A stretch of DNA of 64,000 bases from Lachnospiraceae bacterium. GTDB lineage: Bacteria > Bacillota > Clostridia > Lachnospirales > Lachnospiraceae. A model generated the notes under the pieces. It ran no database searches. It was not told the origin of the DNA and saw only the letters and a list, made by a program, of their open reading frames with translations. The stretch is from contig JAFPWO010000023.1 of the NCBI GenBank assembly GCA_017394885.1, forward strand, positions 62,001 through 126,000, given 5' to 3'. Below, piece by piece: positions 48,291 through 62,026 of the stretch (position 1 is the stretch's first letter; the number at the start of each line of letters is the position of its first letter). Made by a program: the position numbers and the translations under genes.

Positions 48291-49511
48291 TTATTCCGCA
48301 TTCTTCCGCAGCGCTTCGATCCTCTGCGCGGTGGTCGGGTGCGAATAGGTCAGGGCGACCAGGAGCGGAGAAGGCGCCACGTCCGAGAAGTTTTCCCGCG
48401 TCAGTTTTTTGAGGCCGGAGATCAGCGCTTCGCCGCAGCCTTCCTTCGCTGCGTGCGCATCCGCCCGGTATTCCGCCCGGCGGGAGAAAGCATTGGTCAC
48501 AAGCCCGAAGAGCGGCATAAACAGCGCGAATTCCACGCTCATGATCAGGATCAGGGCAAAGCCGTAATTGATCCGGTCAAAGCCGAAGACTTCAAATATC
48601 GCGGGCGTGCGGAGGGTCAGCCACGCGAGCAGCCCGATGATCAGCATCTGGATAAAGGTCAGGAACTGGTTCCGCAGGGTATCCTTATGCAGGCCGTGCC
48701 CCAGCTCGTGGGCAAAAACGGCGCAGATCTCATCATCCGTCATTTTTTCCAGAAGGGTATCGTAAAGCACGATCGTCTTCATCTTCCCGAAGCCCGCAAA
48801 GTAGGCGTTGGATTTGCTGGAACGGCGGGAGGCGTCCATGACGTTGATCGCGCGGACCTTATAGCCGTTCTTTTCGAGAAGGGCCGTGAGCCGCTCCCGC
48901 AGTTCTCCGTCCGGAAGCGGGGTAAACTTGTTGAAGATCTTGCTGAAGAACGGATACAGGAAGGTGAAAAAGAGGATGAAGGCCATCATGACGCCCGCGA
49001 ACACCAGAATGAGCCAGTCTCCGAACTGCCTGTGCAGGCCCATCAGCGCGCTGCCGATCCCGGTGATCAGGCCCAGCTGAAGGATAAACTGCTTGACCGT
49101 ATCGACCGCGAACGTTTTTTTCGTCGTCCGGTTGAACCCGTATTTTTCCTCGATCACCATGGTGTCGCGGTAGGCGAACGGCAGCGTGATAAGGGAAGCC
49201 AGCGTGTTTAAAAGGACGACGGCGAACATCTGATGCCAGTCATCCTCCGCAAACAGGCCCGCGAAGGCCGCGTAGGCGTTGAAGAGGAACAGCAGCAGAT
49301 CGGCCAGAAAAGAGACGGCCAGCTGTCCGTAGTTCAGCCGGCACTTCTCGGCGCTGTAAGCCTGCCGTCGGGCATAGCTTTCGGCGTCATAGACGTCTGC
49401 GACGCAGTCCGGAATCGGATTTTTCGCGGAGCTGAGCCGCAGCCGGTTCAGAAACAGTTCATACAAAAAGACCAGTGTGAGGGCGCCGATCACAGCGAGC
49501 CGGATTATCAT
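48291..49511 (-). CDS. M48-family zinc metalloprotease (Ste24/HtpX-like)
   Basis: 406 residues. HELGH zinc motif with His268 in AVFAHELGHGLHK, downstream Glu in SVEFALF-like helix region, and about seven helices, the layout of CAAX protease Ste24. GGAGGAG lies before the ATG. It is divergent from the radical SAM gene, with promoters back to back. It could process membrane proteins, perhaps the neighbour at 51.1 kb, but this is only inferred from position. Confidence 0.92.
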   Translation of the reverse strand: MIIRLAVIGALTLVFLYELFLNRLRLSSAKNPIPDCVADVYDAESYARRQAYSAEKCRLNYGQLAVSFLADLLLFLFNAYAAFAGLFAEDDWHQMFAVVLLNTLASLITLPFAYRDTMVIEEKYGFNRTTKKTFAVDTVKQFILQLGLITGIGSALMGLHRQFGDWLILVFAGVMMAFILFFTFLYPFFSKIFNKFTPLPDGELRERLTALLEKNGYKVRAINVMDASRRSSKSNAYFAGFGKMKTIVLYDTLLEKMTDDEICAVFAHELGHGLHKDTLRNQFLTFIQMLIIGLLAWLTLRTPAIFEVFGFDRINYGFALILIMSVEFALFMPLFGLVTNAFSRRAEYRADAHAAKEGCGEALISGLKKLTRENFSDVAPSPLLVALTYSHPTTAQRIEALRKNAE

Positions 49512-49664: not shown

Positions 49665-51062
49665 ATGATTCCCATACCGAAACTGTTCCGAAAGACGAAA
49701 ACGGTCCGGCGGATCCAGGCGTATATGGACTCCACCTTCAACGAAGTCCTGCACACGACGCTGAATCCGGACGGGCCCGGCGCGATCCGCGTCCATCTGA
49801 TCCCGCCGAAGAAGGAAGAGAACGCGTTAAATCCGAGTATTGCGATCGTAAACGGTACCGATATCGTGCCGCTCAATTTCGCCTACGCCGTCATTTTGGC
49901 CGAGATGATCCGGGAAGCGAACCGCTACGACGGGAAGGAGATCGGGGAAGCGCAGGTGCAGGACATCCTGAACAATACGGCCGATACCGTGAAGCAGATC
50001 ATTCCGATCTTCTCCAAAAAGCGCATTCAGAATGACATCGTGCAGATCTATACGACGATGAAGCAGATCGCGTACCGCGAGGAAGTGACGACGGATATCC
50101 ACTACATGAGCATCGGCGAGTATGCGGAGTACATGAACGCGCCGCACCGCATGGACGTGATGGTGAGCGCGATGACGAAGAACGGGGCCTGGCACTGCAA
50201 TCAGAAGTGCGTGCACTGCTACGCCGCAGGGCAGGTCCATTCGGATGAGCCGGAGCTTTCAACCGAAGAGTGGAAGAAGATCCTTGATAAGTGCCGCGAG
50301 GCCGGCATTCCGCAGGTGACCTTTACCGGCGGCGAGCCGACCATGCGGGAGGACCTCTTCGAGCTGATCCGCTATGCGCGCTGGTTCATCTCGCGCCTCA
50401 ATACGAACGGGATCAGGCTGACCCCGGAGTACTGCAGAAAGCTGCACGAGGCGGAACTGGACAGCGTTCAGGTCACGTTTTATTCGAGTGATCCCGATGT
50501 GCACAACAAGCTGGTCGGGGCCGCCCGCTTTGCCGAAACGGCTGCGGGTATCGACAATGCGCTGGCGGAAGGGCTTTCCGTCAGCATCAATACCCCGCTG
50601 TGCACGCTGAACCAGGATTATGTGAAGACCCTGGAATATTTGCATGAGCGAGGCGTCATCTATGTCACCTGTTCCGGCCTGATCACGACCGGCAATGCGG
50701 CCGGGGAGGCTTCCGAACGGCTGCAGCTGACCGGGGAGGAGCTGGAGAAGGTCCTGCGGGATGCGGTCGCTTACTGCCATGCGAACGGCATGGAGATCGC
50801 CTTCACCTCGCCCGGCTGGATCCAGCAGGAAGTCTTCGAAGAACTGAACATCCCGTCCCCGTCCTGCGGCGCCTGCCTTTCGAACATGGCGGTCACGCCC
50901 GGCGGGAACGTTGTGCCCTGCCAGAGCTGGCTCTCCGACGCGCCGCTCGGAAACATGCTGACCGATGACTGGGCTTCGATCTGGAACAGTCCCGCCTGCC
51001 TGGAACGCAGGAATTACTCGTCCGATATGACGGGCGAGTGTCCGTTACGGAGGTACTGCTGA
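49665..51062 (+). CDS. Radical SAM/SPASM-type enzyme, candidate Cys-tail maturase
   Basis: 465 residues. An N-terminal region of about 170 residues that I do not recognise leads to the radical SAM core: C178-x3-C182-x2-C185 in CNQKCVHCYAAG, FTGGEPTMREDLFEL, and LNTNGIRLTP. The C-terminal part has a SPASM-like Cys set: CGACLSNMAVTPGGNVVPC, GNMLTDDWASIWNSP, then C-x5-C close to the end. SPASM enzymes bind extra 4Fe-4S clusters and usually modify peptides or proteins. ATG 49665 has GGGGGG upstream and its own promoter; the frame is open from 49233 but that part lies antisense to the M48 gene. Its TGA overlaps the next ATG by one base, which ties it to the Cys-tail protein. Confidence 0.9.
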   Translation: MIPIPKLFRKTKTVRRIQAYMDSTFNEVLHTTLNPDGPGAIRVHLIPPKKEENALNPSIAIVNGTDIVPLNFAYAVILAEMIREANRYDGKEIGEAQVQDILNNTADTVKQIIPIFSKKRIQNDIVQIYTTMKQIAYREEVTTDIHYMSIGEYAEYMNAPHRMDVMVSAMTKNGAWHCNQKCVHCYAAGQVHSDEPELSTEEWKKILDKCREAGIPQVTFTGGEPTMREDLFELIRYARWFISRLNTNGIRLTPEYCRKLHEAELDSVQVTFYSSDPDVHNKLVGAARFAETAAGIDNALAEGLSVSINTPLCTLNQDYVKTLEYLHERGVIYVTCSGLITTGNAAGEASERLQLTGEELEKVLRDAVAYCHANGMEIAFTSPGWIQQEVFEELNIPSPSCGACLSNMAVTPGGNVVPCQSWLSDAPLGNMLTDDWASIWNSPACLERRNYSSDMTGECPLRRYC

Positions 51063-52387
51063 TGAAGAACACGGCGAAGAAATCTGCGAAGCTTTTGCTG
51101 CTGACAGCGGTCTTGCTGCTGATCGGCCTGTTCCTGGCCGTGCCCGTGCAGGCCGCTGCGACCGATGAGATCCTGAACTTTACGATCACGGTGGAAGTAA
51201 ACGACGACGCCTCCCTCGAAATGACCTATCACATCGACTGGAAGGTCCTGTATGACGGCGGCGGCTCGGATAAGCTGACCTGGGTCAATCTCGGCGTTCC
51301 GAACAAGTATCACGAAAACATCACGCCGCTCAGCAAGACGATCAAGAATATCAAAGACAAGGGCAGTACCCTGGAGATCTATCTGGACCGCGGGTACGGC
51401 AAAAACGAAGTGGTCAGCTTTGAGTTTTCCATGACCCAGGACCACATGTATCAGATCGATAAGTGGGTCGAAGGGGAAACGGTCTATACCTTCACGCCGG
51501 CCTGGTTCGACGATTTCAGCGTCGACGAGCTCGTGATCCGCTGGAACGCGGATCAGGCAGGCGCCTGGCAGCCGGACTGCCTGCAGGAGGGCGGCTATCT
51601 GGTCTTTAAGGCGTCGCTCTCGCCGGGCGATCAGTATACCATGAGCGTTGTTTACCCGAACGACGCCTTCGGCTTTGATGTCAGCCGCCAGGCAGACGGC
51701 GGGGGCTATGAGCCGGTCACGCCGACCGAATGGAACGGCGGCGGAGGCGGAGGAGGAGATGGTTCTTCCAGCTTCTTGGATGTGATCGGCGGCCTGTTCG
51801 CCCTGATCTTCATCCTGGCGATCCTGGTCGGCCCGATCATCGCGGTCGTCAAGTTCTTCCAGTGGATCGTTGGCGGCACGGGCTTCGGCTCGGAAAAAAC
51901 GATGGAGAAGAAGATCACGCGCACCAAGATCGAGTACTACGCGAACTGTCCCAGCTGCGGCTCCGCACGCGAAGAAGGCAAGGATACCTGCCAGTACTGC
52001 GGCCGAAGCATGATCAAGAGCAAAGAAGTCGTGGAAGAGAGCCAGATCGAAAAGCCCGAAAAGTACACGAAAAACGGCACATACCGGTACGGCGATTCGC
52101 CGAATACGTACATCCACGTGAATGTGATCAATGTCCCGGTCAGCCGGCCGCGTTCGGGCGGACCCGGCCGTCCCAGCCATTCTTCCCGTCTGGGCGGCGG
52201 TTCGCATCATTCCTCCTGCGCTTCGTCCTGTGCCTGCGCCTCGTCCTGCGCCTGCGCTTCGTCCTGTGCCTGCGCCTGCGCCTGTGCCTCGTCCGGCCGT
52301 GCCGGCTGCTCGGTGAAGGACTTCTTTAAGAAGAGCATCCACGAAGGCCGCGTGAAGATCGAGAGCAAAAAGAAAGAAACAAACTGA
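51062..52387 (+). CDS. DUF2207-like membrane protein with cytosolic zinc ribbon and Cys-rich tail
   Basis: 441 residues. Signal peptide (1-33), outer beta domain at about 35-225 of the DUF2207 kind (ILNFTITVEVNDDASLEMTY), a Gly-rich linker, a helix at about 238-262, then a cytosolic zinc ribbon (CPSCG, Cys296 and 299, with CQYCG after 16 residues). The end (about 375-420) is a His/Ser/Ala/Cys tail with ten Cys, including three exact copies of ASSCAC, then ACACASSGRAGC. ATG 51062 overlaps the radical SAM stop (TGATG) and GGAGG lies within that gene. By this topology the tail is on the same side as the enzyme. The tail looks like a substrate for thioether or other Cys modification; not shown. 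Confidence 0.88.
   Translation: MKNTAKKSAKLLLLTAVLLLIGLFLAVPVQAAATDEILNFTITVEVNDDASLEMTYHIDWKVLYDGGGSDKLTWVNLGVPNKYHENITPLSKTIKNIKDKGSTLEIYLDRGYGKNEVVSFEFSMTQDHMYQIDKWVEGETVYTFTPAWFDDFSVDELVIRWNADQAGAWQPDCLQEGGYLVFKASLSPGDQYTMSVVYPNDAFGFDVSRQADGGGYEPVTPTEWNGGGGGGGDGSSSFLDVIGGLFALIFILAILVGPIIAVVKFFQWIVGGTGFGSEKTMEKKITRTKIEYYANCPSCGSAREEGKDTCQYCGRSMIKSKEVVEESQIEKPEKYTKNGTYRYGDSPNTYIHVNVINVPVSRPRSGGPGRPSHSSRLGGGSHHSSCASSCACASSCACASSCACACACASSGRAGCSVKDFFKKSIHEGRVKIESKKKETN
52220..52273 (+). repeat. Three 18-bp units coding for ASSCAC
   Basis: Direct repeats starting at 52220, 52238 and 52256; they differ only at third codon positions. They form the core of the Cys-rich tail. Confidence 0.9.
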
Positions 52388-53691: not shown

Positions 53692-55230
53692 TCAGATATT
53701 TCCGCCTACCCCGGAGCCCGCGTTGAAGCCGAAGATCATGCAGCAGATCAGATCGGCAGCGAAAGCCAGGCACAGGACGGCGCATATGATCCACTGCGTC
53801 TTTTTCGAGGCGTGGCTGAGAGAGCGGCTGATGGCCGGGCCGACCAGATAGACGCCGGCCATGCCTCCGATGCCGAAGGCCAGCAGGCCCGCGAGACAGA
53901 TCCGGCCGTTGATATTCATGAACATGGTTTTGTAATCCCAGTAAGAGGAATTAAAAAGATAATCCAGCAGAAAACTGGTCAGGTATTCCAGCACCGCGCA
54001 GAGCAGCACGGCGATGAAGAATGTCCTGACCGGTTTTTTCTTGAAGCGGTCCAGCAGCAGGATGATGGAGACGCCGCCCACGCCGTAGATCGGCAGCCAG
54101 GGACCGTACATGGTTCCGCGGTTGACGAACATGTGATCCTCCACGAGGTGCAGCCCCACCTCCCAGAGATACCCGACCAGGCAGAAGGCGAAAAACATCA
54201 CGATGATCTCCCGGATATTGTACGGGAAACGCCGCTTTTCTTCCGGATGTGCCGGCTTCATATTGATATCGGCCAGGCGGTAGGCAGGGAGGAAATCATC
54301 TTCCCGCTCCCCGGCCACAAAGGCCGGCAGGGCGAAGGCGTCTTCGATCAGCAGCCCCTTTTCATCCGCCGCGTTTTTTCGAAGCCGGAAGTAAAACTCC
54401 GCGACGAGCTGCGTCTGCAGGGGAACCGCCGTCAGCAGGCCGACGACGGGGATGATCCGCAGCAGCCACATGTAAAGATAGGACAGCTCCGCGCAGAACA
54501 TTTTCCACTTGTATCCCCGGGTCATCTCGGCCGAAAGCTTTTTGGCGTCTTTCCAGCGGACCGCAGGGTTCTCAGCCAGGATATAAGGCACCATCCGGTA
54601 CTGATAGGCTTTGTAGATGCCGCCGATAATCGTAAAGCCCCATAAAAGAAGCGTTCCGTGGTACAGCAGGGACACCCGGATCAGATTTCCCAGATTATTC
54701 TTGTGAAAAGGAGAAAGGATGCGGCGGAAGCGCACCGCCTTCTGCTGGCGGTTTTCCATCGCAAAGCGGCACTGGCCGATCACGATCACGTTTTCGAACA
54801 GAAAATGGACCGCTGCCGTCAGCAGGACGGCCAGAAATATATTGACCAGGACTTCGCCCGGATTTCTTTCGTAATAAGCCTGATTGAGCGCTAAAAGCCG
54901 CACGATCCAGGTGACGCTGCGCGAAAGGCTGTCGATCATGCTCAGGACCGTTTCGGAGCGCAGGAAGGGGAAGGTCTCCGCCAGCGAAGAGTTTGCCAGG
55001 TAGTCTTTCAGATAATCGATGTTGTGCGGCAGCAGATCTTTTTCGCCCCCGGTCAGCGAGTCGACCGAGTTTACCACGGATGCCTGCGAGCTGTTGGATG
55101 CGCCTAAAAAGGCAAAGAGGAAGCAGACGGTGACCAGGATCAGCCACGGCTTCGCTCCTTTGCAAAAAACGGTATTCCAACTGGTCTTGCGGATCTCCTT
55201 CAGGTTCCAGCCTGTTGTTTGGTCTGTCAC
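53692..55230 (-). CDS. DUF975-like / CmpB-type membrane protein fusion
   Basis: 512 residues. The first about 330 residues form a helical membrane part with internal DUF975-like features (WNTVFCKGAKPWLILVTVCFLFAF, GYKWKMFCAELSYLYMWLLRIIPV). The last about 150 residues match the CmpB 'putative ABC permease' family: GYLWEVGLHLVEDHMFVNRGTMYGPWLPIYGVGG and SYWDYKTMFMNINGRICL. Start is GTG 55230 with AGGAGG 5 bases upstream; the frame is open further but without a site. Function unknown. A shorter CmpB protein lies at 59.6 kb. Confidence 0.82.
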   Translation of the reverse strand: MTDQTTGWNLKEIRKTSWNTVFCKGAKPWLILVTVCFLFAFLGASNSSQASVVNSVDSLTGGEKDLLPHNIDYLKDYLANSSLAETFPFLRSETVLSMIDSLSRSVTWIVRLLALNQAYYERNPGEVLVNIFLAVLLTAAVHFLFENVIVIGQCRFAMENRQQKAVRFRRILSPFHKNNLGNLIRVSLLYHGTLLLWGFTIIGGIYKAYQYRMVPYILAENPAVRWKDAKKLSAEMTRGYKWKMFCAELSYLYMWLLRIIPVVGLLTAVPLQTQLVAEFYFRLRKNAADEKGLLIEDAFALPAFVAGEREDDFLPAYRLADINMKPAHPEEKRRFPYNIREIIVMFFAFCLVGYLWEVGLHLVEDHMFVNRGTMYGPWLPIYGVGGVSIILLLDRFKKKPVRTFFIAVLLCAVLEYLTSFLLDYLFNSSYWDYKTMFMNINGRICLAGLLAFGIGGMAGVYLVGPAISRSLSHASKKTQWIICAVLCLAFAADLICCMIFGFNAGSGVGGNI

Positions 55231-55251
55231 AGCGGCCTCCTTTGTATTCCC

Positions 55252-55298
55252 AAAAAGATTCCCCGGCCGGAGAGGATGGTTCTCCGACCGGGGATTTT
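55252..55298 (-). terminator. Terminator of the first cyclodeaminase-family gene
   Basis: Minus strand: long stem with arms ATCCCCGGTCGGAGA and TCTCCGGCCGGGGAAT, then five T residues. Confidence 0.85.
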
Positions 55299-55322
55299 CA
55301 CAGATTCTGTGATTCCGTTTGA

Positions 55323-56453
55323 TTATTTGCCGAGAGCCGGGGTCTCCCAGAGGTTCAGCGTCTGGCCGATGCCGAGCTCTTTCGCTTTCTGCCAGCACAT
55401 CCAGCCCCATGCTACGTCATAGGTCGCCTGGCCGCCCTGTGCGAACAGGACGATCTGATCTTTGTTCTTTCTCGGAGCCTTCTTGCCCGCATACACTTCG
55501 CCGAGGTCGATGACGTCTTCTCTCTTTACGATGCCGTCATGGACATAGTCGAAGGTGCGCTCGCCCATGCCGTTGATCTTCGCAGCCAGCGGATAGCCCA
55601 TTTCCTGGCCCCAGGCTTCATACATCTTGAAGTTGTCGCAGACGATGCTGCATTCCTTGATGAAGTCGATGTCGATATCCACGGTCGCCGGCAGGGAAAC
55701 CATGCAGCCGGGCTTCAGCCATTCTTTCTCAATGCGGGGGTCAACCTTGCCGGAGGTGGCGGCATTGATGATGTCGGCATCCTTTACGCATTCTTCGATG
55801 CTGTTGCAGATGATGACTTCTTTCACGTGCGGATACTTCTCCGGACGTTCTTCAATCAGCTTCTTCATATCCTCGGCGGCCTTCGGGAAGATATCGTAGA
55901 TCTTGACGGTGTCGATCGTCGGGCAGGCCAGCAGGATGGAAGGCAGGGAGTTGCGGTTGATGGCGCCGGCCGCGATCATGGCAGCGATCTTCGGATTTTC
56001 GGGAGCCAGGACCTTGGCGCCTACGCCCGGGATAGCGCCGGTACGCATCGCGCTCAGCAGGTTGGCGGATTCCAGCGCAACGGGGGCGCCGGTGTCCGGA
56101 TCATTCAGCATGACCATCAGGATGGAGCGGGGAAGTCCCTTTTCCTTATTGTCGAGGTTGGAGCCGTACCATTTTTCACCGGCGATATGGAACTTGCCGC
56201 CGATGTAGCATTCCATGGTCATGAAGCGGCGGTCCGGGCCGTTGTGCGGCATGCCGGGATGGACCGGGTTGTCCGGGAAGCTGATCATCTGGCCGTGGGA
56301 GTTGTGGTTCTGGCCGCCCATGACATAGTCGCCTTCGCCCATGACCTTATACACTTCGATCATGGTCTCCAGACACGTTTCCATGTCATTGACGCCGGCC
56401 TTGATCATGTCCTGTTCATTCAGATACAGGAAATCGATGCGGGTATCACTCAT
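55323..56453 (-). CDS. Ornithine cyclodeaminase / mu-crystallin family protein, copy A
   Basis: 376 residues. RIDFLYLNEQDMIKAGV at the start, the substrate lysine region AGEKWYGSN, SANLLSAMRTGAIPGVGAKVLAPE, and the NAD-binding second half. This group is often named 'tyramine oxidase subunit B', but the family includes cyclodeaminases, imine reductases and alanine dehydrogenases. All key regions are intact. It has its own promoter (TTGACA/TAAAAT) and a strong terminator. It is the most diverged of three tandem copies. Confidence 0.88.
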   Translation of the reverse strand: MSDTRIDFLYLNEQDMIKAGVNDMETCLETMIEVYKVMGEGDYVMGGQNHNSHGQMISFPDNPVHPGMPHNGPDRRFMTMECYIGGKFHIAGEKWYGSNLDNKEKGLPRSILMVMLNDPDTGAPVALESANLLSAMRTGAIPGVGAKVLAPENPKIAAMIAAGAINRNSLPSILLACPTIDTVKIYDIFPKAAEDMKKLIEERPEKYPHVKEVIICNSIEECVKDADIINAATSGKVDPRIEKEWLKPGCMVSLPATVDIDIDFIKECSIVCDNFKMYEAWGQEMGYPLAAKINGMGERTFDYVHDGIVKREDVIDLGEVYAGKKAPRKNKDQIVLFAQGGQATYDVAWGWMCWQKAKELGIGQTLNLWETPALGK

Positions 56454-56525
56454 AGTTGGTTACCTTCTTTCTTTGATTTTTTGAACCCAATATAAGATGC
56501 ATAAGAGCTCTTTGAACTATAATAA

Positions 56526-56554
56526 ATTTTAAAGAAAAAGCCGGGCTTTGTCAA
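56526..56554 (-). promoter_or_regulatory. Promoter of copy A
   Basis: Minus strand: TTGACA (56554-56549), 17-base spacer, TAAAAT (56531-56526), the same boxes as gapdh. Confidence 0.83.
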
Positions 56555-56628
56555 GCAGTATGCAGACACTTGATGTGATTTCAAGCAAAATGAAAGGAGC
56601 GTGAGACACAATTCCTTCATTTGTTTCA

Positions 56629-57759
56629 TTATTTGCCCAGAGCGGGACTCTCCCAGAGGTTCAGCGTCTGGCCGATGCCGAGTTCTCTGGCCCGCTGCCA
56701 GCACATCCAGCCCCATGCCACGTCGTAAGTCGGCTGCCCGGCCTGGGCGAACAGGACGATCTGATCTTTGTGTTTCCTCGGGACCCGCCTGCCGGCATAG
56801 ATCTCGCCGAGTTCGATCACGTCTTCCCTCTTCAGAATGCCGTCGTGGACATAGTCATAAGCGATGCTGCCCATGGCACTCATTTTTGCGGAGAGAGGGT
56901 AGCCGGTCTCCATGGCAAAGGCTTCATACATCTTGTAGTTGTCGCAGACGATACTGCATTCCTTAATGAATTCGGTATCGATGTCGATGGTCGCGGGCAG
57001 AGAAACCAGGCAGCCGGGCCTGAGCCATTCTTTCTCGATCCGGGGATTGACCTTGCCGGAAGTCGCGGCGTTGATAACATCGGCATCTTTTACGCATTCC
57101 TCAATGCTGTCACAGAGAATAATTTCCCTGACGTGCGGATATCTTTCCGGCTGCTCTTCGATCAGCTGCTTCATTTCTTCAGCTGCCTTCGGGAAAATAT
57201 CATAGATCTTTACGGTCTCGATCGTCGGGCAGGCCAGAAGAATGGACGGGAGCGCATTGCGGCTGATGGCACCGGCCGCGATCATACCGACTGTCTTCGG
57301 GTTTTCCGGGGCCAGGACCTTGGCGCCGACGCCCGGGATCGCGCCGGTACGCATCGCGCTTAAGAGATTGGCGGATTCCAGCGCGACCGGAGCGCCGGTA
57401 TCCGGGTCGTTCAGCATGACCATCAGGATGGAGCGCGGAAGGCCTTTTTCCTTGTTTTCGATGTTGGAACCGTACCATTTTTCACCGGCGATATGGAACT
57501 TGCCGCCGAGATAGCATTCCATGGCCATGAAACGGCGGTCCGGGCCGTTGTGCGGCATGCCGGGGTGGACCGGATGATCCGGAAAGGCGATCATCTGACC
57601 GTGGGAATTGTGGTTCTGGCCGCCCATGATATAGTCGCCTTCACCCATGACCTTATAGACCTCGATCATGGTCTCCAGGCATTTTTCCATGTCATTGACG
57701 CCGGCCCTGATCATGTCCTGCTCATTCAGATACAGGAAATCAATACGGGTATCGCTCAT
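56629..57759 (-). CDS. Ornithine cyclodeaminase / mu-crystallin family protein, copy B
   Basis: 376 residues, same length as copy A and with the same motifs (AGEKWYGSN, SAMRTGAIPGVGAKVLA). The N-terminal half is almost identical to copy C in DNA, including silent sites, while the C-terminal half differs from it (for example SAKMSAMGSIAYDYVHDG). It starts 46 bases after copy C, so both share a transcript. Substrate unknown; enzyme activity is inferred from the family. Confidence 0.88.
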   Translation of the reverse strand: MSDTRIDFLYLNEQDMIRAGVNDMEKCLETMIEVYKVMGEGDYIMGGQNHNSHGQMIAFPDHPVHPGMPHNGPDRRFMAMECYLGGKFHIAGEKWYGSNIENKEKGLPRSILMVMLNDPDTGAPVALESANLLSAMRTGAIPGVGAKVLAPENPKTVGMIAAGAISRNALPSILLACPTIETVKIYDIFPKAAEEMKQLIEEQPERYPHVREIILCDSIEECVKDADVINAATSGKVNPRIEKEWLRPGCLVSLPATIDIDTEFIKECSIVCDNYKMYEAFAMETGYPLSAKMSAMGSIAYDYVHDGILKREDVIELGEIYAGRRVPRKHKDQIVLFAQAGQPTYDVAWGWMCWQRARELGIGQTLNLWESPALGK

Positions 57760-57805
57760 GCTTGCTTACCTTCTTTCTTGTGGATTTGAGGATGACCTGT
57801 TTTTG

Positions 57806-58936
57806 TCATTTGCCGAGAGCCGGGGTCTCCCAGAGGTTCAGCGTCTGGCCGATGCCGAGCTCTTTGGCCCGCTGCCAGCACATCCAGCCCCATGCCACGT
57901 CGTAGGTCGGCTGCCCGGCCTGAGGGAACAGAACGATCTGATCCCGGTACTTTCTGGGAACCTTTCTGCCGGCATAGATCTCGCCGAGTTCCGTAATATC
58001 TTCCCTTTTCAGAATGCCGTCATGGACACAGTCATACGTGCGGCGGCCGATGGTATTCATCTTCTCGGCGAGCGGATAGCCTGTTTCCTGGGCAAATGCT
58101 TCGTACATTTTGAAGTTGTCACAGACGATGCTGCATTCTTTCAAAAAGTCGATGCCGACATCGATGGCAGACTGTGTGGAAACCAGGCAGCCGGGCTTGA
58201 GCCATTCTTTTTCGAGACGGGGAGGAACTTTTCCGGAACTGGCAGAATTGACGATATCCGCGTCCTTCACGCATTCCTCAAGGCTGTCGCAGAGAATGAT
58301 TTCTCTGACGTGCGGATACCTTTCCGGATGTTCTTCGATCAGCTTTTTCATCTCTTCGGAAGCCGCCGGAAAAACGTCGCAGATCTTTACGGTCTCCAAT
58401 GTCGGACAGGCCAGAAGGATGGATCGAAGAGAGTTTCGGCTGATGGCGCCGGCCGCGATCATACCGACCGTCTTCGTGTCTTCCGGGGCCAGGACTTTAG
58501 CGCCGACGCCCGGGATCGCGCCGGTACGCATCGCGCTTAAGAGGTTGGCGGATTCCAGCGCGACCGGGGCGCCGGTGTCCGGGTCGTTCAGCATGACCAT
58601 CAGGATGGAGCGAGGAAGGCCTTTCTCCTTGTTTTCGATGTTGGAACCGTACCATTTTTCGCCGGCGATATGGAACTTGCCGCCGAGATAGCATTCCATC
58701 GTCATAAAGCGGCGGTCCGGGCCGTTGTGCGGCATGCCGGGGTGGACCGGATTGTCCGGGAAACTGATCATCTGACCGTGGGAATTGTGGTTCTGGCCGC
58801 CCATGATATAGTCGCCTTCGCCCATGAGCCGGTATACCTCGATCATGGTCTCCAGGCATTTTTCCATGTCATTTACGCCGGCCTTGATCATGTCCTGCTC
58901 ATTCAGATACAGGAAATCAATGCGGGTGTCACTCAT
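57806..58936 (-). CDS. Ornithine cyclodeaminase / mu-crystallin family protein, copy C
   Basis: 376 residues. First gene of the array in transcription order. N-terminal half as in copy B; the region aligned with SLPATVDID in the others reads STQSAIDVG, and the hinge SSGKVPPRLEKEW also differs, so the substrate or cofactor fit may have changed. ATG 58936 aligns with the MSDTRIDF start of the other copies; the frame is open 24 codons further upstream. Confidence 0.88.
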   Translation of the reverse strand: MSDTRIDFLYLNEQDMIKAGVNDMEKCLETMIEVYRLMGEGDYIMGGQNHNSHGQMISFPDNPVHPGMPHNGPDRRFMTMECYLGGKFHIAGEKWYGSNIENKEKGLPRSILMVMLNDPDTGAPVALESANLLSAMRTGAIPGVGAKVLAPEDTKTVGMIAAGAISRNSLRSILLACPTLETVKICDVFPAASEEMKKLIEEHPERYPHVREIILCDSLEECVKDADIVNSASSGKVPPRLEKEWLKPGCLVSTQSAIDVGIDFLKECSIVCDNFKMYEAFAQETGYPLAEKMNTIGRRTYDCVHDGILKREDITELGEIYAGRKVPRKYRDQIVLFPQAGQPTYDVAWGWMCWQRAKELGIGQTLNLWETPALGK

Positions 58937-59016
58937 TTTTGTTACCTGCTTTCCTGGGAAAAAAAGGGGTTTACGGACGCCTCGGAAAGCCGGAACAGGC
59001 TTTCCCATCTGCGGTA

Positions 59017-61873: not shown

Positions 61874-62026
61874 AACGCTTCCTTTCCGCTTATGATGACC
61901 GTGCGTACGTTTCTGCCCTCACAGTACCACTTTTTCGGCATTCCTTCAAGATGGAAGGCCGTCCGGCATTTTTTTGCGGCAAAAGCGGCCGGGATGTGCT
62001 ATGATGATTCAGGGAGGCATTGCCGT

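Follow-up and report, generated by a model that had tools for sequence, protein, structure and literature searches.

A stretch of 64,000 nucleotides from a Lachnospiraceae bacterium (positions 62,001 to 126,000 of contig JAFPWO010000023.1, assembly GCA_017394885.1), called the window here, carries on its forward strand two genes that overlap by a single base: one for a radical S-adenosylmethionine (SAM)/SPASM enzyme and one for a membrane protein that ends in a tail rich in cysteine. The stop codon of the enzyme and the start codon of the membrane protein are joined in the sequence TGATG, with GGAGG shortly 5' of the ATG, and the same one-base start-stop overlap is retained in most Lachnospiraceae loci. 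When the sequence was re-read, the coordinates and the overlap given in a preliminary description of this DNA held, as did its signal peptide, single later helix, zinc ribbon, ten tail cysteines, and three exact ASSCAC units. The gene pair is now far better supported than that sequence-only view could show. Its features are listed below, with the window protein representing type 1 of three subtypes; RiPP stands for ribosomally synthesized and post-translationally modified peptide, RRE for RiPP recognition element, and pLDDT for the predicted local distance difference test of the structural models.

49665..51062, forward strand: radical SAM/SPASM enzyme gene, 465 amino acids, with Pfam Radical_SAM and SPASM matches
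49740..50084, forward strand: N-terminal RRE-like domain, approximately residues 26-140, modelled as strands followed by three helices
50196..50219, forward strand: radical SAM [4Fe-4S] motif CNQKCVHC (C178, C182, C185), invariant in all three subtypes
50865..51041, forward strand: reduced SPASM domain (C401, C404, C419, C445, C459), matched by Pfam SPASM
51062..52387, forward strand: gene for the membrane protein with the cysteine tail, 441 amino acids, translationally coupled to the enzyme by TGATG
51062..51157, forward strand: predicted signal peptide region, from the alignment and a hydrophobic helix at model residues 2-25
51158..51679, forward strand: ectodomain, predicted beta sandwich folded like ribophorin I and the M1 aminopeptidase N-domain, with most of the model above pLDDT 90
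51773..51871, forward strand: predicted single transmembrane helix, residues 238-270, from the model, hydropathy, and positive-inside charge over 54 proteins
51947..52003, forward strand: zinc-ribbon motif CPSC...CQYC (C296, C299, C310, C313), read from the sequence and clade-specific
52208..52312, forward strand: Ser/Ala/His tail with ten cysteines, predicted to be disordered (pLDDT below 50 for residues 363-424)
52265..52318, forward strand: near-invariant tail core CACACACASSGRAGCSVK, kept in 66 of 67 relatives and in the window
52313..52381, forward strand: predicted C-terminal helix (V/A-K-[DNE]-[FL]-[FY]...), model residues 418-440, pLDDT about 40-60

The first gene product belongs to a reduced-SPASM branch of the radical SAM/SPASM superfamily. 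It matches the Pfam families PF04055 (Radical_SAM, E 3.6e-24) and PF13186 (SPASM, E 8e-8), both above cut-off, and reaches no listed curated NCBIfam equivalog cut-off. The window-type SPASM domain keeps only five cysteines, while the CX2CX5CX3C block is present in subtypes 2 and 3; because type 1 lacks this block of the seven-cysteine SPASM form, the enzyme is filed as SPASM-containing, reduced form. In the AlphaFold2 model of the whole enzyme (pLDDT 85, predicted template modelling score 0.86), the fold order of the N-terminal domain fits an RRE, yet the enzyme has no PqqD or RRE match in Pfam. Structural alignment of this model reaches into the RRE-like part, starting at residue 29 for SuiB and at residue 41 for SkfB, and eight residues of the domain are invariant (H30, T32, P35, G39, R42, H44, N63, and G64). 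The nearest solved relative by sequence profile, in a search of PDB sequences, is the sactionine synthase SkfB (E 2.3e-19). By fold, the nearest are SuiB (Z 24.1 over 359 residues), SkfB (Z 23.5), and anSME (Z 23.4), with CteB next and EpeE much lower (Z about 15.8). A plasmid search with the enzyme gave no match. A defence system was considered and rejected: the enzyme gives only superfamily-level matches to viperin, and the membrane protein gives none.

For the membrane protein, a Pfam search up to E 1 found nothing and NCBIfam gave no match of substance, so that it falls within no curated family. The modelled ectodomain, a confident beta sandwich over model residues 35-200, resembles ribophorin I and the M1 aminopeptidase N-domain in fold (VIA-align against 6ezn_A, Z 16.0 over 169 residues, root-mean-square deviation 3.0, 8% identity; against 3ftu, Z 12.2); this is a likeness of the predicted fold, and no shared function is claimed. 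A PDB sequence search with the membrane protein family returned only weak protocadherin matches (E 0.003 and 0.54), which are read as a probable generic beta-sandwich resemblance. Over 54 proteins, the flank before the transmembrane helix has a mean of 1.0 Lys and Arg and 4.2 Asp and Glu, while the flank after it has 3.0 and 1.6, respectively, and this asymmetry places the tail in the cytosol. Taken with the signal peptide and the single transmembrane helix, the positive-inside charge makes it highly likely that the tail faces the cytosol, a predicted orientation that agrees with the preliminary description. The zinc ribbon is present in the window protein but is not a fixed part of the family, being missing from Gemmiger/Oscillospiraceae and Bacilli relatives; in an alignment of 39 proteins both the ribbon and the linker come and go. 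The ten cysteines of the window tail all lie within residues 386-416. Beyond them is the predicted C-terminal helix, which is a possible recognition segment for the enzyme; K419 is invariant in alignment A2.

The tail had been characterized at first by its ASSCAC units, and three of these are present; the conserved element, however, is a (CA)4-xx-GRAGC core and not ASSCAC. When the tails were aligned for cysteine spacing, the core CACACACAxxGRAGC[ST]xK proved to be kept in 66 of 67 relatives as well as in the window, the exception (L071) having one Ala/Thr change. The only positions invariant across the 39 aligned proteins are a few in the ectodomain and those of the tail core, and the linker, zinc ribbon, and ectodomain drift to about 30% identity while the core stays near-invariant. 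The CACACACA stretch is written in 46 distinct 24-base DNA spellings across 67 genes, so the conservation acts at the protein level; a DNA repeat artefact as the source of the core was rejected by the same codon variation.

The tail is also tied to the enzyme. When 84,980 species genomes were scanned with the enzyme as query, 75 loci came up, in Lachnospiraceae, Oscillospiraceae, Gemmiger, Faecalibacterium, and two genomes labelled Bacilli; 73 of these were analysed for neighbours by a motif-anchored search. The tail gene is directly downstream of the enzyme in 67 of the 73, and in the remaining six the contig breaks off no more than about 1.25 kb from the enzyme; all 67 loci with enough contig therefore have a tail gene adjoining the enzyme. 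In a sample of 391 genomes of the class, a tail-only profile (E<=0.001) and the enzyme query (E<=1e-40) selected the identical 11 genomes from eight genera, for which the chance probability, with relatedness ignored, is about 1e-21 by genome and about 1e-14 by genus. Among 145 relatives, the enzyme was found at the same threshold in 18 genomes and the membrane protein in all 18; two additional membrane-protein matches (G088 and G093) were short and weak. The pairing anticipated in the preliminary description was thus recovered in other genomes, in all 67 loci with room and in all 11 enzyme-bearing genomes of the class sample, and a majority of tails standing without a linked radical SAM gene, which would have spoken against it, was looked for and not found. 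One genome (G382, locus L146, 4782-6709) has two tandem tail-bearing membrane paralogues upstream of a single enzyme, and the second of these has Tyr replacing one Cys (CACACAYACACA). In another (G458, locus L152, 4660-8950), the tail-protein gene is split in two with transposase-like open reading frames (ORFs) between the halves, and the enzyme is apparently intact.

The association extends to deeper relatives. In an enzyme clade further removed, at 44-45% identity (L140, L141, and L152), the tail reads CACACACACACAGGGRVGCSERGYQ. A census of 398 genomes of the phylum was made both with the tail profile and with the exact (CA)4 pattern. The tail search found G535 (E 8e-4), a genome in which a different, larger membrane protein ending in SCACACACACASSGGCT is followed by a radical SAM/SPASM enzyme; with three further genomes of the same arrangement (G653, G619, and G540), this forms subtype 2. 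Profile alignment gave E 1.9e-47 for the enzymes and a weak E 7.7e-6 for the ectodomains. Besides the window and subtype 2, the exact-pattern search brought out eight genomes of subtype 3 (G842, G882, G679, G775, G576, G614, G900, and G704), in which the tail GCACVSCACACVSCACACACAGG[GR]GAGC comes right after a related enzyme (profile E 1.8e-78) and the ectodomain is likewise related (E 4.7e-25). The exact (CA)4 DNA pattern occurs in 17 of the 398 genomes, and an enzyme adjoins 13 of 13 in-frame motif tails, a count that leaves out G631 and G673, which are not real tails, and G649 and G728, in which the places read were all non-tail. Although their enzymes and membrane proteins have diverged, subtypes 2 and 3 retain a (CA)n-xx-G..GC tail next to the enzyme.

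Some of these operons contain additional genes. Six of the eight subtype 3 loci (L197-L204) have a clearly readable LemA-like frame a short way downstream, and two of the LemA-like proteins were confirmed by Pfam PF04011 (E 6e-17 and 1e-16); no LemA gene was found in the window's own genome. The subtype 3 operons also contain an uncharacterised, variable ORF of about 180-250 amino acids where clearly read. In three subtype 2 loci (L163-L165), the enzyme is followed by two further conserved ORFs of about 270-310 and 265-283 amino acids with signal-like starts.

The explanation that best accommodates these observations, and which is probable as a whole, is a two-gene modification module of an enzyme and its membrane-protein substrate, with a tail that is modified and kept as a resident appendage. 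The N-terminal RRE-like domain would bind the inner end of the membrane protein, and the enzyme would then modify the Cys-Ala tail on the cytosolic face. After modification, the protein would stay anchored with type I topology, the ectodomain outside, one helix spanning the membrane, and the tail inside. Its product would be a hardened, cysteine-derived cytosolic appendage, possibly metal-binding or redox-responsive, that reports on whatever the ectodomain senses. The parts of this explanation differ in strength. That the tail is the substrate, as the preliminary description had proposed, is very probable, because it is the only segment kept across all subtypes, is never without the enzyme where this can be checked, and accompanies an enzyme with RiPP-maturase architecture; the census co-occurrence, the constancy of the tail amid change in the rest of the protein, the RRE-like domain, and the peptide-maturase relatives all point the same way. 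The likeliest reaction, favoured by a little over even chances, would be thioether cross-linking, in which cysteine sulfurs are joined to the backbone carbons of neighbouring Ala, Ser, or Gly residues, because Cys and Ala alternate in the core and SkfB, the nearest solved relative, accepts Ala as a thioether acceptor (PMC8326336). A metal or redox role for the tail is more tentative, a guess from the cysteine content, the topology, and, in subtype 3 only, the LemA linkage. In its fullest form, the proposal is of a class of post-translational modification in which a radical SAM/SPASM enzyme cross-links the cytosolic Cys-Ala end region of a resident type I protein; the resulting appendage, permanent and rich in thioethers, would link a beta-sandwich sensor outside the cell to the internal metal or redox state, in at least three diverged subtypes within one phylum; put so completely, it falls slightly short of an even likelihood.

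The enzyme may instead act on the tail with another outcome, such as formylglycine-type oxidation of Cys (as by anSME), carbon-carbon cross-links (as by SuiB), or epimerisation to D-Ala (as by EpeE). Both anSME and SuiB are as near in fold as SkfB, and Ala is invariant in the core to the same degree as Cys, so that a different product, while unlikely, has some weight. However, SkfB tops the sequence search, the many cysteines suit thioethers better, EpeE is far lower in the fold comparison, and the core is without CxPxR, the anSME-type motif.

It is also conceivable that the tail is a cleavable precursor, with a protease freeing the cysteine-rich peptide after modification, which would make the system a true RiPP pathway with a membrane-bound leader. 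The enzyme, RRE-like domain, and core do resemble a RiPP cluster, and in the window a gene for an M48 membrane protease adjoins on the opposite strand (48291-49511). This is nevertheless improbable, as no protease or transporter/exporter is conserved across the neighbourhoods in a search limited to genes linked to the loci, the tail is on the predicted cytosolic side, the core is fixed whereas antibiotic cores evolve fast, and type 1 has a C-terminal segment after the core. Equally doubtful is the suggestion that the tail is an unmodified metal or Fe-S appendage and that the membrane protein serves as a scaffold for an enzyme whose target is a different molecule or a different residue, such as one in GRAGC or the ectodomain. 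CxCxCxC is like metallothionein-type ligands, and the G-C after the repeat persists in proteins that have lost the R-A and K-D-F-Y parts, but the RRE-like domain and the peptide-maturase relatives point to a peptide substrate, and the tail is the only segment that all three subtypes share at high identity. Chance linkage of a low-complexity tail to an unrelated radical SAM gene is negligible: low-complexity Cys-Ala coding can arise randomly, and four pattern matches (L167, L169, L177, and L180) are short or otherwise non-tail frames, but the co-occurrence is perfect in 391 genomes and is accompanied by two gene orders, three subtypes, and a conserved overlap, and the tail-profile and enzyme censuses of the class genomes led to its rejection.

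Several points weigh against a modified, thioether-bearing tail in the cytosol. The modification is itself inferred from sequence, and the topology of the tail is a predicted one. The alternating Cys-Ala pattern cannot be divided into donor and acceptor halves, as sactipeptide hairpins can, and CxCxC repeats could bind metal unmodified. With a reduced SPASM domain, the auxiliary clusters may differ from those of SkfB or CteB. In some subtype 3 proteins, tens to hundreds of low-complexity residues separate the tail from the C-terminus, and across clades there is no third gene that hints at a function.

Among known systems, the enzyme can be set beside SkfB, AlbA, RumMC, and CteB, which combine radical SAM and SPASM with an N-terminal RRE-like domain, for which the enzyme has a candidate; they act, however, on small peptides of leader and core that undergo cleavage and export, while here the candidate is part of a resident membrane protein, and the type 1 SPASM domain is reduced, unlike theirs. 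Because there is no small leader-core precursor and the candidate substrate is a 441-amino acid type I protein, the pair falls outside the definition of sactipeptide and ranthipeptide systems; by analogy, it would work as a RiPP maturase does, but on a portion of a resident protein. The SCIFF and ACGX systems of NCBIfam also pair a SPASM enzyme with a cysteine-rich target, but their targets are small peptides; the enzyme is under every listed model cut-off for them (the type 2 enzyme scores 63.7 against a cut-off of 400 for rSAM_ACGX), and no target model picks up the membrane protein. QhpD forms thioethers by radical SAM chemistry, and its target is a working protein, as opposed to an antibiotic peptide (PMC8326336). 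That target, the QHNDH gamma subunit, belongs to a soluble enzyme and has Cys-Asp/Glu links, and is likened here by description. LemA and DUF2207 genes form known pairs (PMC12631010), and such modules resemble subtype 3 in having a LemA gene downstream of the tail gene; neither the window membrane protein nor the subtype 2 and 3 proteins match DUF2207 (PF09972) at E<=1.

The closest described parallel is that of the TIGR04222 membrane proteins with MNIO enzymes. These proteins have an unstructured C-terminal segment rich in Cys, Ser, and Gly, their genes stand beside a gene for an MNIO (DUF692), and the tail is the proposed substrate; about one-third of the genomes are without an MNIO, and more than one-quarter of the proteins are without C-proximal Cys (PMC12452194). 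Both systems thus place a membrane protein with a cysteine-rich C-terminal segment beside a peptide-modifying metalloenzyme. The TIGR04222 system has an MNIO, tails predicted to be periplasmic, and several transmembrane segments, whereas the present system has a radical SAM enzyme, a type I protein, and a predicted cytosolic tail. In addition, the link between enzyme and tail is perfect in the census here and the core is near-invariant, while TIGR04222 is often without an MNIO. The window membrane protein has no TIGR04222 match in NCBIfam at E<=1, and no MNIO was found among the scanned ORFs of neighbouring genes. The earlier remark that no described system of this form was known needs to be qualified by this parallel in another enzyme class. 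No description of the tail sequence or of such a pairing was found in the open literature, of which the coverage was incomplete.

Neighbourhood clustering of ORFs of at least 90 amino acids found no third gene conserved across clades, with local synteny only, and no small cysteine-rich gene conserved across loci. The M48 gene of the window (minus strand) encodes a CAAX-protease-like membrane metallopeptidase and is divergent from the enzyme gene; no counterpart stood out across the other loci. On the other side of the pair, also on the minus strand, are a gene for a membrane protein with a DUF975-like part (below cut-off) and an ABC_trans_CmpB domain (53692-55410) and three tandem paralogues of about 375 amino acids from the ornithine cyclodeaminase/mu-crystallin family (55323-59008; PF02423, E about 1e-52 to 1e-55).

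To our knowledge, radical SAM peptide chemistry is known almost solely from small peptides that are secreted or form cofactors. The sequence evidence ties a radical SAM peptide enzyme to the fixed tail of a membrane protein that the cell retains, and the pairing points to an undescribed system that would remodel part of a resident membrane protein and yield no secreted peptide. The hosts are gut and rumen Lachnospiraceae, Oscillospiraceae, Gemmiger, and Faecalibacterium, together with distant relatives. If the tail is modified, these bacteria would have a new route to a metal- or redox-active element in a membrane receptor. If this is true, then, taken with the MNIO-TIGR04222 system, the modification of cysteine-rich membrane-protein tails by enzymes would seem to have arisen more than once.

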